The notes under the pieces are model-generated. The model saw only the letters and a program-made list of their open reading frames with translations. It did not search any database and was not told where the DNA came from. A DNA stretch of 64,000 nucleotides from Daphnia pulex (Eukaryota > Arthropoda > Branchiopoda > Diplostraca > Daphniidae): NCBI RefSeq assembly GCF_021134715.1, contig NC_060028.1, positions 9,709,482 to 9,773,481 on the forward strand. The letters run 5' to 3'. The position numbers and the translations under genes were made by a program. Below are positions 40,405 through 51,700 of the stretch, piece after piece (within the stretch, counting starts at the first letter, position 1; every line of letters begins with the position of its first letter).

Positions 40405-42467
40405 ATGACTGATAGTAAAATCAATTCCATGTTGATGAAATTGCCAGATGAGACTGGCAAAGGAGGTATGTTTGACTTTGTTTTTCCCCTCCATTGCAAT
40501 GTTTCCAAATATGATCATGTTTTTATTTTGTTTATAAGATGTTATGGCTGCCACCAGTGTGCTGCAGCAAAAAGCAAATGAAATCAGGAACAATTCCATC
40601 AATTGGCAGTCGTACCTACAGTAAGTTACCGATGAAATTCAAACAAATGTCCAATCGAATATAGACTCTGTTAGAGCTACCAAACATTGCAAGTAGCACA
40701 CAACTTTTCATTTCCAAGCTATTAATCAATCTTCAAAACTAAACATAATCTGCAATAAGCACTTTGACGTATAATTGTTTTGAAAACAGTTGAGCAGAAA
40801 GACTTTTTTAAATTTCAGATCTCAGATGATTGGTGACGATGATTACCGTTTCATCACTGAATTCCTGTCATCTGATGGAAGCAAGAGAGACACACTGCTG
40901 GAGGAACAGAGGGGACAATGTGCCAAGACCTTCCTGAGTCTTCTGGAGCACATTTCCAAAGATCAAACAGTTCAGTACATCCTCACAATTATGGATGATA
41001 TGATGCAGGTAATATTTCAAAATGTTACTGTGACTTTATTTTTAGAATCCATTCATGATCCTGAACCTTTTGATTTTTTGAATATAGGAAGATATGAACA
41101 GGGTTGAGATTATTCGCGAGTACGCAAAGAAGAAGCGCGAAAATGTCTGGTCGCCCTTTTTGAATCTGTTGAACCGGCCCGATGGCTTCATTCAAAACAT
41201 GACCTCTCGCATCATAGCGAAATTGGCTTGCTGGTCTCGCGATCCAATGGAGGGCTCTGATTTGACCTTTTATCTGACTTGGTTGAAGGATCAACTTCAA
41301 ATGCCAGGCAACGAATATGTCCAAACCACAGCTCGCTGTCTCCAGATGATGTTGCGAGATGAAAAGTATCGCTTGGTGTTTGCCGGAATGGGAGGTGTTT
41401 CCGTCCTAGCGAATATCCTGTCTGGGCGCATCAACTTCCAGGTAAGGTATTGCCAGACTTGAAATATTTCTAAAGTGAACAACACCATTTCCTTTTTTGA
41501 CTAGATTCAATACCAGTTATCTTTCTGTCTATGGGTGATGACTTTCAGCACTCAATTGGTGGAGCAAATGAACAAGTATAAGTTGACGTAATTTCCCCCT
41601 AGTTACTGGCTGATTATCCGCTTCCATTTCGTAAATTTCTAGACACAAAATCATTCCCATTCTGGGTGACATTCTGAACGATAGCGTCAAGGATAAGGTC
41701 ACGCGCATCATTCTGGCCGTCTTCCGCAACATGATCGAGAAGCCGGAAGACGCGGCCATGATTAAGGAGAACTGTGTCGCCATGGTCCAGGCTAAAGTCC
41801 TGAAGCAATTGTCGATCCTGCAGCAACACAAATTTGACGATGAAGACATTATGGCCGACATTGAATTCCTGACAGAGAAACTTCAAGCATCTATCCAAGA
41901 TTTGAGCTCCTTTGACGAATACTCGACGGAAGTCAAGGCGGGTCGCCTGGAATGGAGCCCCGTGCACAAATCGGAGCGCTTCTGGCGCGAAAACGCTCCT
42001 CGTCTCACTGAAAAGAACTACGAACTATTGAAAATGCTTGTTCACCTTTTAGAGACCAGTCGTGACACGCTGGTTCTTGCTGTGGCCTCCTATGACATCG
42101 GCGAGTTTGTCCGACATTATCCCAGAGGAAAAAGGTGATTTTGCCTTTCAATTTCGTATCGCTGATGTTCTAACTAAATTCGGCATTGATGTTTCGCCGA
42201 TATTTTTAGCATCATTGAACAGCTCGGCGGTAAGCAGATGGTAATGCAACTACTTGCTCACGAAGACTCTAACGTCCGGTATGAAGCTCTGCTCGCTGTC
42301 CAAAAGCTGATGGTCCACAATTGGTTCGTATAAATCTTAAGTCAAATCCATCGGCCTTCAATGCATTTGTATTTTTCTATTGAATGCGTAGGGAATATTT
42401 GGGCAAGCAATTGAAGAAGGATCCCACATCTGAAAGTTCATCCACCGGTGTGAAAACTAAAGGATAA
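40405..42467 (+). CDS. ATP6V1H: V-type proton ATPase subunit H (VhaSFD/ATP6V1H)
   Basis: Eight exons (40405-40465, 40539-40620, 40819-41008, 41088-41441, 41505-41575, 41643-42134, 42210-42323, 42392-42467) join in frame to 479 aa, against 483 in human. Subunit H sits between V1 and Vo. It is needed for proton pumping and silences ATP hydrolysis when V1 detaches. The protein is all helical armadillo/HEAT-like repeats. Conserved stretches are [78 protein letters not shown] as [10 protein letters not shown], and [20 protein letters not shown] near the C-terminus. The ATG opens [16 protein letters not shown] in an A-rich context. A polyadenylation signal lies just 12 bases after the stop, so the 3' untranslated region is very short. 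Confidence 0.97.
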
Positions 42468-43675: not shown

Positions 43676-46600
43676 ATGCAAGAGGACGAATCCAATCTGG
43701 AGAATGTGGAGGCTGGATGGATGTTTCGGGGTATTTTAGGTGTAGTTTTAGGATCCGTAATTGTGGTACTGGCTCTGCTGATGTGTGTGTGCTTCAAAAA
43801 AACCAGAAGGTTCGATTTTTAATAGTAACAATTCATTAGCTTAGAAGTAACTGTGGCATGACAATCGATCTCATTTTAGGGGTAGTGATGCAGAAGAACA
43901 TAAGAATGGTAACCTGTTTGGGTCGTCAAGACATTCTACCGCTCTTGATACTGAATTTGAAGAGGATGGCCTTAAAGGAGCTAGAGCTACAAGTCACAGA
44001 AGATTACCTGACTTACCAGATCCTCTTCTCAACGGATCTGAAAACCCTGTTGCTCGACACAGTAGTGTAAGGAGTAGTCAAGATACCTCTTCAGAACTTT
44101 ATGCTCAGGTCGAAATCGGAGCAGCTACAAACTCGTGTAAGCATAGCAAAACATTATTTTATTATCAGCAGATATCTAACATAATTTTCTTTGTTGCAGT
44201 TCCAGTGAATACTAATATAAGTGAAGATTCTGAGGCTGTCAGAATTTCTGCCACAAACTTTAATCCGCAAACGGAAGAACCGAACGAAAATCACCCTTAT
44301 GACAAAGTAAAGTCTAACCATGGGTACTCCAAAATCAAAAAGAAAGGTATCGAAAAATTTGTTAGCAGCAAAAAGATTTTCAAAGTAATTTATGCTTGAT
44401 TTTCTATAGCAGAGAATCCATACGCGAAGGTAAAGCGTAGCGATACCATGGAGAGTGAACCTGCTGAGGCAGATGAAAACGAGACAGACACAGATAACTA
44501 CGATGTGGTTTACACCATGCGTACTGTTGATGAAACGAGAAAAGTTGAGTCGTCCCCCAATGGTGGAGTTGCAGTAGGAACTGGCACCGATAATAGCGCT
44601 CCTCCTCCATTACCTTTGCCACTACGAGGCTCTCACAGTAGTTTGGCTAGTGGAGGTGAATCAGGAAGTCACGGTCCTCGGCCTCCCCCTCGAGGCAGAC
44701 GTGGCCACAGTATCATTTTGAGCCATGCTTCCTCTAATGGCAACATTCATAGACCCAATAGTCTGATCTCAAGTGATCAGGATGTAGCTGGGCCTGATTC
44801 CCTTGATGGCGCCGCAGCTGTCCAGAACGACACACTTCCAGAAGCTAGGGGGGCTGGTGTGGCCCAAATTCATTTTAGTGGGGATTCTCAAACATCTCAG
44901 GATTCTAGTAAGTCTCGTCTAAAACGATTTTATATTGTCAATCAATAGCCGATTCCTTTGGATTATAGAGGGTTACTCGAGTATAAGCGTCCGCGAGCCA
45001 TTAGCCAATTTGAAAGCTCTGAATCCCGGAGGGAACGTGGGCAGACAAAGGATTGGATCGTCCTCACAACACCATCGCCAGCCTGATTCATTGGATCCGC
45101 ATTACGCGACTGTATCGGATGCCGAAGACTCGGACGAAATGTACGCGGCCATTGCCGAGTTACAGCCAATATACGACAGTGGCGCAGGATCCGATACTTA
45201 CGCCAAGATAAATGACCGTTCAGAGGCTACTGCGTCCAGTAGTGGGGCTGTTGCTACGGCAGCTGCCGCCGCCGCATTAGTTGTTCAAAGCCCTGTAAGT
45301 CCCACACTACCCAACTTTCCCTCGGAAACGGAGCGGATCTGTCCCTCACCTGTCCCTCCTACGCCTCCAAGCGTAGTGTCTCTCAAGCAACTATCCACCG
45401 GATCAAGTCGACTACACGGTAAGCCCCGTAATGTATGTCAATAATATTGAATCCTATAATTGAGTTTATTTTTTCCTCGACAGCCTCTACATTAAGTATT
45501 GCCAGCCAATCGTCGATCGTGGGTTCGCCCAAACCGGAAAAACGGCAGGCCAATTCACCTTTACCACCTCCACCGTTCCCGTTAGAATTGAATGACAGCC
45601 TCGATCGCTCTAGAAAATCAATGAACGTTGAAGAGATGTACGCTAAAGTAATGAAGAAGAAGGGTTTCTCCGTTCACCCGTGGGCGGTGGCGTCGGGCGA
45701 AACGGGAGCTGCCAAAATACAATCTCATCGCGGATCCGTTGACCTCGGATTTCTAGTTACAAGAGATGCGGGAGAATCGTTTTCGCACAATCCAAGCCGA
45801 CGAAATTCGGTCGACTCCACACCTCAGTCGATGGGCTTCGATGTTAACGAGAATGGACATCAAGGTTGTAATTTAGAGCATGCTGGCGTGTGTGAAGGTC
45901 CTTAATTTCTATTGTCTTTGATAGTTTCGGAAGCCGCTGTTCAAGAATCTGTTGCAGCTGTCGTTGAGGAAGACGATGAAGAAGACGATTTTCGCTATGA
46001 AATGCTCCCCACACCGAGAAAGAATCGTATCTCAGAAACAGATCCGGGTTATGAAAAGATACAGCTCAAAAGTGGCGATTCGTTTAACGACCCCCGCTAC
46101 GAGCGCATTCATTTAAGGAACAACGGCGAAGTAGAACCAAACTACGAAGTCGTTGGATTCCGGTAATTATTTTAACCATCCCGAGGCTTCGTGCAGCGAA
46201 CGTTAGATTTATTTCGCATTGTTTTTGCTCTTTTTGTTTTCTCAATCTAGTAGGAAGAGGTTAAGCGAGTCTAGTGAACCCGGTTACGAAATAGTTGAAC
46301 TGCACCAGAATCCAACGTCAGGATTCAGCCGACAAGACCCAAATTATGAAAGTTTACATTATTCCGTCCATCATGGTGTATCCGATCCGCCGTACGCCAG
46401 TATCGCAATCCGGGGTGACGAGTTGAAGGAAGGAGAGTTGGAAGTTATGACGGAAGAGACTACAGCTGAGTTGGTCGTCAACAATAATACGGTCGGTATC
46501 CCCGTTTATGCTCAGGTGATCAAGTCAAAGAGAGCGGTGGCGCAAACCAATGTCGTCTCCGTTCTAGAGAGTCTTCCGACTACGACCGACGAATTTCCGA

Positions 46601-46755
46601 CGGTTCCTGTGTCACCCCGAAGCCTTGAAAATCAAGACTATTCTGTCAGCAGTAGTAGTAAGAATACGACAATCATTCGAATTAGTACTGATAACCGACC
46701 TCCTATTCATTATTTTCCCGACGACGACACCTTCGGTGTTCCCGAACAAGTCTAG
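43676..46755 (+). CDS. Single-pass membrane adaptor with about 18 Tyr-x-x-hydrophobic motifs (PAG/Cbp-like layout)
   Basis: Eight exons (43676-43809, 43880-44136, 44200-44346, 44413-44907, 44969-45418, 45484-45864, 45925-46162, 46251-46755) join in frame to 868 aa. There is no signal peptide. An acidic N-terminus of 18 residues precedes one helix (about 19-40, GILGVVLGSVIVVLALLMCV) and a Cys-Phe-Lys-Lys stop-transfer end, so a short outside and an 825-residue cytosolic tail are expected. The tail is disordered, Ser/Pro-rich, with polyproline runs (PPPLPLPL, PLPPPPFPL), and repeats short Tyr motifs: YAQV, YDKV, YSKI, NPYAKV, YDVV, YSSI, YATV, YAAI, YAKI, YAKV, YEML, YEKI, YERI, YEVV, YEIV, YESL, YASI, YAQV. 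When phosphorylated, such sites bind SH2 domains, and the polyproline parts suit SH3 domains. The layout matches vertebrate PAG1/Cbp (short ectodomain, juxtamembrane Cys, many YxxV/I sites), which recruits the Src inhibitor Csk. No full homology was recognised; function is inferred from architecture. Confidence 0.8.
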
Positions 46756-48782: not shown

Positions 48783-51700
48783 ATGCCGCGTTCTAGGTAT
48801 TGCAAATCCAGGTCTAGAAGCAGATCCAGATCACCAAGATCCAGGTCACGATCATGGGATAGAGGGAGAGACCGTGACAGGAAAGATAGACAGGAGAGGA
48901 GCCAAAGGAGAAAGAGCTCATACAGGTATGTCAAATTGTTATGTCTTCTTTAATCCAGGCAATGTTGATTCTATTGAGAGCAGAATACTGCCCAGATGGT
49001 TTCTTTTCAACTTTTGAGGTAGTAGACACTGACTGCGCTTCATAGAACTGTATCTAAACACATATTTAAGATAACCGTACATAGCTTTTTAACTGCCAAT
49101 GCTTTGGCTTGTTTTTGCAAAGTACTTTATTCATCCTTCCGACAAACTGTGGGAGCCATTTCAATCTCTTGGAGCTCTCTTGGAGCTCACTGAAGAAATA
49201 CAGTAGCAACCAAGCTCACGAGGATCAATCCAAGTGTTTTCTTTTCTTTAAGTAATAACATTTGTTTTTTTTACACCATCAGGCTTCACTTATTCAAGAA
49301 ATGCTTCAATATTGTCAATCTTCTAATTTGACTCTCAGTTTGTTAAACCTTTTACTTGCTCGCCAAGAAAAGACGCAAATCAATTGATTTTGGAGAGAAT
49401 TGTCGTTTTCTATTCTTTTCTTTACTTTTTTTTAGTACGATGTCGATTATATTGTCTTTAAAACTTTTTCGGTTATGGTATTCGTGAGCAGCAGATGGCG
49501 TTGCGTGTCGTGAATCGGGATTCATCGTGTTATCCGCATGAAATGTTGGTTTTTAGCCAAGCCACGAAATGGCCATTGATTTTTTACTGTCTTGTTACAG
49601 CATTTGCAATCCCATATTTTTCATTGATTCTCATTACTGGCGTCCTTGAGAACACTAACAGGAGGGACAAGATGCGAATCGATAAGTAAACAGCAATAAC
49701 AACGAAAAAACGCGCCATTTCAAAAATAGCCATTTCCTCCTTGTGCCAGTTTCATTGAAAACGGGGTGGGAGTCCGTTTCGTGAAAAAGAAAACAAAACT
49801 TCTCATGCCTTTTTCGTTATTCCGCATGATTTCAAGGTAGCCCTCCTCCTTCTGGTTCGTTTGGTCATGAAAAAAGCCAAGAGAAACTATGGACAACACG
49901 TAGCGTGAGAGAAAGTCAAACAGGGGGGTGGGTTCGCATCCGTGAAACGTGAGAGATGGTGTACAGTCATAATGCGCCAGCGACTGGCATTGACCCACTT
50001 GGGTAAAAGACGTAAGAGACCGAGCTGCTCACTAGCCAGCAAGTGAACGAAAGGTGTAAGTGCACCGACGGGCACAACGTGTTGACCATGATTAATTGCT
50101 GTAGATAACTGAAAAAGGGCGTCATCACAGGTAAACTCCAAAAAGCCAAACTTAGGGAGGGCTCGAGCGGCAAGGGGGAATTTCGTCACAGAGGACACCT
50201 CACGGATCCGACCAACATTTTGCATCTTATCTGCTGACCCCGTTGACACCTCGCGTCGTTTCTTTTGGGGGTCCAGCGAGCGTTCGATTTTCTTTCGCCG
50301 TACTTGACCCGCTTCATCGATGACATCGCGTCACCTTTTACAGAGTTTCTTTTCTCATTTTTACATATTGTTTTGCAAAGCATCATTTTTTTCCTCTCTT
50401 TTTAATTTCGCTTCGTCGTTTCAAATAAACCGACTGCTTTGTTGTGTTTGTGTCGTCTAGGACGACTTGATGCGACTTTATGAAAGATTCACTTGAGCGT
50501 AGGTGCCCTTGGATGTGTCGTCTTTGTCCTCTGGGACGATTTCTATAAATACGAAATGAAGTCGCGGTCGCATCAATAATAATGGTGAATCGCTGCAGCT
50601 GCAGCAGCAGCCTCTTCTGCGTGTCCCGCAGGATACCGCAGGTCGCGCATAAATTGAAGCGATGCACGTCTTAGTTACGGTGTTTTTTGCGGGTCCATGT
50701 AATAGTTTCCCTAGCTGCCTTAGTAGCGTCGATTGCCTCCAATCGCCGGTCTTGTTGTTGTGATATATTTCCCGTTCCGAGTTTACTGGAGCTAGACAAC
50801 GGGTATGCAGGTCGACACGCAACAAACCCACCACTACCGCCTCTTCTCTTATCATGTAGTAGTAGTAGCTCACAGGTATACTCACATATCTCACCTACTT
50901 TTCTGTCTTCACGTTTGTCTTGAGCTATTCCCTTTTTGAGGCCGCTCGTGTAATTCTTCTGAGCTGGTGAACCACATCACCGTAACATGCACCGTATCGT
51001 TTCTTTTGTTGCGTCCATCAACACAAGAAAAATCCCGTGAGTTTTATTTCTGTTTTGGAAGAAAATAACTCCCCCCACGAAAAAATAGTCGAAGCGTTTT
51101 CCTTTCCGTCCAAGTCCTTCCACAAGTCGAAGAGGCCAAGGGCGGAATTAGAAATAGGGATGTGTCATAATGATGCCTTGCCCGAGTATCCATCAACATC
51201 CATCAAGACACTGTTGCAGGTTGAGCGAGTAGGTCTAGTTAGCCAGTCAGCGTCTCGCAGGCAAGGACCATCATTGGTCCAACAATTACCAACAGATTGT
51301 AATAATTGCGAAGAAAAAAGGGTGTTGTCTTCACGTGCTTGTGTGTGTGCCTATGTCTATCTTGAATGCATGGTCAACTCTATGTATGATCGATTCGTCA
51401 CGAGCCAAAGTGGCTATAGTAGCATCACGAATGAGGAAGCTAGCTAGCTCGCCTGGCAATGGATGTTATGCCGGTATATCCTTGAGACAGAGGCAGTACC
51501 GCGTTTTGGAACTAGTAGCTCGGGCATAGCAGCAAGCGGCCATTTGGCACATTTCCCGTTCGCTTTATGGTCTTATGTGTGTTCACGTGATAGGCGGGGG
51601 GTCTCAATTATAAATAAAAGAGACGGTGTTTGTGAGTCATTTTCTGCCAGAATCTCGAAATGTGGCGGATGAATAATCCGCCGTTTAACCCTGACCGTTT

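Follow-up and report, generated by a model that had tools for sequence, protein, structure and literature searches.

A Daphnia pulex membrane protein with 18 repeated YxxPhi sites: a candidate phosphotyrosine scaffold resembling PAG/Cbp in layout

We identified a gene in Daphnia pulex encoding a predicted single-pass membrane protein (a candidate scaffold, called the scaffold below for short) whose long tail carries 18 tyrosine sites of the form YxxPhi, where Phi is a hydrophobic residue. The gene lies in a window of 64,000 nucleotides (contig NC_060028.1, positions 9,709,482 to 9,773,481), from the first letter of which all coordinates are counted. The best reading, to which we assign a probability of roughly 0.5, is that the protein is a phosphotyrosine scaffold working like PAG/Cbp, docking Csk and a Src-family kinase and thereby restraining Src; we do not claim common descent with PAG. 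The evidence for a role in phosphotyrosine signaling as such is stronger than that for any particular partner. Phosphorylation of the tail, the pairing of its sites with particular SH2 domains, and the direction of regulation are proposed here from sequence.

The joined reading frame spans 43676-46755 on the + strand in eight exons and yields 869 aa upon spliced translation, with no inner stop and with a TAG ending at 46755. All seven introns are 60-88 nt long with GT..AG borders, and their GC content of 0.25-0.38 compares with 0.49 in the coding sequence. A tandem NAG acceptor, CTAGTAG, was found by eye before exon 8 (46244-46256), giving 869 aa or 868 aa depending on the half used; the 868-aa exon chain of the initial annotation corresponds to the second half and agrees with our model. 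This choice adds or removes one Arg beside the basic stretch FRRKR. No transcript was seen, and the joined model could in principle be mistaken, the exons representing a pseudogene or several genes; we find this barely credible, as the eight exons share one frame with GT-AG borders and low-GC introns, and motif selection is visible in each of exons 2-8.

Exon 1 (43676..43809, + strand) supplies the start codon, an acidic outside segment (residues 1-18), the helix with Cys37 and Cys39, and the start of the basic stop, as read from the spliced translation and hydropathy. The predicted transmembrane helix (43730..43795, + strand; residues about 19-40) ends in MCVCF, is preceded by about 18 residues, and is followed by the basic stop KKTRR. 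The eight best 19-residue hydropathy windows begin at residues 16-23, with a maximum of 3.04, and past residue 40 no window exceeds 1.49, the value of an Ala-rich stretch at 433, which bears out the very short outside and single helix first proposed. Under the positive-inside rule, basic residues mark the cytoplasmic side of the membrane, so the position of KKTRR after the helix fits an outside N-terminus. The juxtamembrane cysteine of the initial annotation is present but is in fact two, Cys37 and Cys39, where the helix ends on the inner side (CVC); both may be palmitoylated and may target the protein to rafts. The tail comprises 824 residues, including 23 tyrosines, and the long disordered tail first described (given as 825 residues) holds in length, with modest support for disorder. 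In a charge-hydropathy comparison, 8 of 11 tail segments were negative (the disordered side) and 3 of 11 positive, with a value of -0.04 for the whole tail, making disorder likely although not strongly shown.

YxxPhi sites account for 18 of the 23 tail tyrosines, a number that 0 of 5000 shuffles reached, the expectation being 4.05. Sixteen are YxxV/I, a class that averaged 2.64 and never exceeded 9 in 5000 shuffles with the tyrosines held fixed. The sites occur at 1, 2, 2, 4, 1, 4, and 4 per exon across exons 2-8, all on the + strand: exon 2 (43880..44136; GT-AG borders and open frame) contains the first, Tyr119 at 44100, followed by Tyr164 and Tyr173 in exon 3 (44200..44346), Tyr184 and Tyr210 in exon 4 (44410..44907), Tyr348, 391, 404, and 423 in exon 5 (44969..45418), Tyr548 in exon 6 (45484..45864), Tyr647, 665, 681, and 696 in exon 7 (45925..46162), and Tyr714, 734, 750, and 788 in exon 8 (46251..46755), which begins at the tandem acceptor and ends with the stop codon. 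The claim of about 18 such sites, with each of exons 2-8 contributing at least one, is thus confirmed, as is the frequent Pro, Gly, or Asn before Tyr (G/N/P at -1 in 10 of 18).

Position +3 is V in nine sites, I in seven, and L in two, never F or M, and position +1 is A in eight, E in six, D in two, and S in two. Pro occupies -2 in 8 of 18 sites (P 4e-5) and D/E occupies -3 in 11 of 18 (binomial P 6e-6; 0.59 YxxPhi sites with D/E at -3 expected), both columns having been picked after seeing the sites. YxxPhi is also the motif of clathrin adaptors (AP), and a single-pass protein bearing it might be a recycling membrane cargo with trafficking signals for AP-1/AP-2. This explanation seems quite improbable to us: 18 copies with set residues at -3 (D/E), -2 (P), and +1 (A/E) exceed what AP signals need, and +3 is V/I in 16 of 18 sites.

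Two classes make up most of the array. Y[AST]x[VI] is represented by 10 sites (0.68 expected), placed on both sides of a block of YEx[VIL] sites, of which there are six (0.30 expected), consecutive from Tyr647 to Tyr734 and beginning in exon 7. Six YE sites in a row among 18 have a chance of 7e-4, a pattern noticed after the fact. The YE block is part of an array of seven C-terminal YxxPhi sites (45996..46404, + strand; Tyr647-Tyr750) spaced 15-20 residues apart, six of them YE.[VIL]. The seven units agree 100% in the first two codon positions for both -3 (D/E) and Tyr, while in the third codon position identity is 24% for -3, 14% for -2, 43% for Tyr, 48% for +1, and 24% for +3. The sites are therefore not recent DNA copies, since third codon positions are scrambled where the motif amino acids repeat. 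Alike amino acids encoded by unlike DNA would be expected of old repeats under protein-level selection, or of independently gained motifs; this codon comparison stands in for an ortholog comparison and does not replace it.

The two classes point to candidate partners. The consensus ligand of the Csk SH2 domain is taken here as Y[TAS][KRQNS][MIVF], a form for which a partial literature search returned no published source; eight sites fit this consensus (0.27 expected) and six fit a stricter form (0.14 expected). The D. pulex genome contains 43 SH2 domain matches. The best, on contig C2, is that of Csk: its top PDB match is 2rsy_A at 111.9 bits, with 52 of 73 residues identical by hand count and the stretch FLVRESTNYPGDYTLCVS unchanged. 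The same PDB entry includes, as 2rsy_B, a PAG peptide with YSSV. A second SH2 domain, on contig C10, is of the Src family, with Fgr, Fyn, Yes, and Src as best matches. The presence of Csk and of a Src-family kinase is read from these SH2 domains. An excerpt of PMC5876402 gives pYEEI as the optimal ligand of the c-Src SH2 domain, and c-Src is described as binding Cbp via its SH2 domain in an excerpt of PMC3968143.

A short proline-rich motif near the membrane may contribute to Src docking. RRLPDLP (43998..44018, + strand; residues 85-91) is by pattern match a putative SH3 ligand of the class I type, and R.LP.[LIV]P occurs once against 0.0025 expected, the pattern having been picked after seeing RRLPDLP. 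The general SH3 patterns of both classes (I and II) show no excess in the protein (1 vs. about 0.5 expected each). A second proline-rich stretch, APPPLPLPLR (44598..44627, + strand; residues 243-252), is discussed below, and LPPPP is found once, at residue 522 in exon 6 (0.004 expected).

Taken as a Csk/Src scaffold, the protein would have many of its YxxV/I sites phosphorylated by a tyrosine kinase that is probably of the Src family. Phosphorylated Y[AS]xV/I sites would then dock the SH2 domain of Csk, the most likely partner, and a Src-family kinase might be held jointly by the YEx[IVL] block and the putative SH3 ligand RRLPDLP. Csk would in this way be brought beside Src at the membrane, providing feedback restraint of Src like that by vertebrate PAG/Cbp.

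Alternatively, the tail may recruit other SH2 proteins and so activate signaling as opposed to restraining it: ITAM-like pairs may bind a Shark/Syk-type tandem-SH2 kinase, or the partners may be relatives of SHP2, Nck, PI3K, or PLC-gamma. We consider this possible, though a good deal short of probable. Two YxxL/I pairs with ITAM-like spacing (6-12) are present against 0.03 expected, and we keep the ITAM reading open because these pairs also point to tandem-SH2 kinases. The 43 SH2 matches in the genome offer many potential partners, among them an SH2-ankyrin-SH2 arrangement of frames (L016) that by eye resembles the kinase Shark and could bind such pairs. However, only two pairs have ITAM spacing, 16 of the 18 sites end in V/I and not L, and the protein has no ITIM pattern, YxN, or YxxM. 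YxxP, YxxF, and TxYxxV/I are likewise absent from the protein, with 0.14-1.9 expected for these six patterns, so that each absence alone is weak. Among the remaining SH2 matches, two similar SH2 pairs on one contig (L013, L025, L014, and L037; G000:C10 near 8.18 Mb and 3.04 Mb) resemble, to the eye, a duplication of PI3K regulatory subunits, and SH2 stretches on three contigs (L017, L019, and L024) appear PLC-gamma-like by eye, suggesting several copies.

The overall plan closely resembles that of PAG1/Cbp. The scaffold and human PAG1 both have a short outside, one helix, juxtamembrane cysteines, and a long YxxPhi tail. In either protein the tail sites include the classes YEx[VIL] and Y[AST]x[VI], and their density is nearly equal (2.18 sites per 100 tail residues in the scaffold and 2.28 in PAG1). 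Both also have a membrane-proximal R.LPx[LI]P, as RRLPDLP at 85 in the scaffold and RELPRIP at 131 in PAG1, and a second proline stretch, APPPLPLPL and APPPVPVKL, respectively. The proteins differ in that the scaffold tail is about twice as long (824 aa vs. 394 aa), with YxxPhi at 18 of 23 tail tyrosines as against 9 of 10 tyrosines in PAG1; the scaffold has CVC where PAG has CSSC; and its YE sites stand in one block, an order of site classes unlike that of PAG.

The PAG1/Cbp layout noted in the initial annotation is thus closely matched, whereas membership in the PAG family was not supported. In a profile search, the whole protein and two pieces of it matched neither the Pfam PAG model PF15347 nor any other family at E <= 10; as a control, human PAG1 matched PF15347 at 752.2 bits over 1-432. 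A search of the D. pulex genome with the PAG profile also gave no match, which says little because that search lacked a control match. The cytoplasmic parts of the two proteins gave a local alignment score of 71, which was attained in 6.4% of 500 full and in 21% of 500 motif-keeping shuffles, and the alignment of the membrane-proximal N-terminal parts was no better than shuffles (attained in 49%). Comparison with PAG1 by phmmer gave 4.3 bits. Among 500 full shuffles (452 with a score row) 4 did as well, and among 500 motif-keeping shuffles (482 with a score row) 13 did; the best stretch, at 3.6 bits, includes the second proline region, and we take the result as a hint, not as homology. PAG ends in a C-terminal PDZ ligand, and the motif [ST].[VIL] is absent from the C-terminus of the scaffold, which ends in PEQV.

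We have not filed the scaffold as PAG because PF15347 gives no match, the pairwise likeness is marginal, and the PDZ C-terminus is missing. The protein might still be a true, fast-diverged PAG/Cbp ortholog, in which case a membrane-anchored Csk scaffold would be older than the protostome-deuterostome split. The shared plan and site density, the two proline-rich features, and the phmmer score speak for such an origin; the failed profile match, the alignment scores within reach of shuffles, the different order of site classes, and the missing PDZ C-terminus speak against it, and we regard it as rather unlikely.

Other known systems resemble the scaffold in part. LAT and NTAL/LAT2 are adaptors that also cross the membrane once, have little sequence outside, and carry tyrosine sites, but the scaffold has no YxN, the LAT-type Grb2 site (1.3 expected), and matches no Pfam family. 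With ITAM-bearing receptors and adaptors such as Draper and DAP12, the scaffold shares the YxxL/I pairs but has no extracellular domain, and most of its sites are single YxxV/I motifs. Searching PDB sequences with the scaffold gave one chance match (E 0.88). Within the D. pulex genome (133 Mb, 13 contigs) no paralog was found, the eight matches being seven of its own exon stretches and one chance stretch on C4 (E 0.6). For the last 209 residues, 20 pattern matches in prokaryote genomes and 4 in viral contigs were returned, none of them confirmed, from collections not expected to include arthropods. Partial coverage of the literature yielded no arthropod PAG-like adaptor by title or abstract among the matches listed, and the available excerpt of a Daphnia immune survey (PMC2685406) does not mention Csk, its "Src" matches being SRCR domains or similar. 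The scaffold may already be catalogued without a name.

A bolder reading, possible though less likely than not, is that arthropods have a membrane-anchored Csk/Src scaffold of their own, with double the valency of PAG1, either derived from a bilaterian PAG/Cbp precursor or arrived at independently with a matching plan and matching site classes. If this is true, then under either origin the restraint of Src by a multi-site membrane scaffold is no invention of vertebrate lymphocytes, and the protein would date a mechanism found in lymphocytes, brain, and tumours of vertebrates, or show that it arose convergently. Csk has no lipid anchor and requires membrane recruiters, as stated in excerpts of PMC9792154 and PMC10382208. 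With a dedicated scaffold of high valency in a crustacean amenable to genetics, the route by which Csk reaches Src in arthropods could be tested.

Two further features of the window flank the gene. Downstream, at 48783-48926 on the + strand, lies an Arg-Ser-rich open frame that is reminiscent of how an SR-type splicing protein begins and has no Pfam match. Just upstream, at 41088-42138 on the same strand, is the gene for V-ATPase subunit H (PF03224, PF11698).
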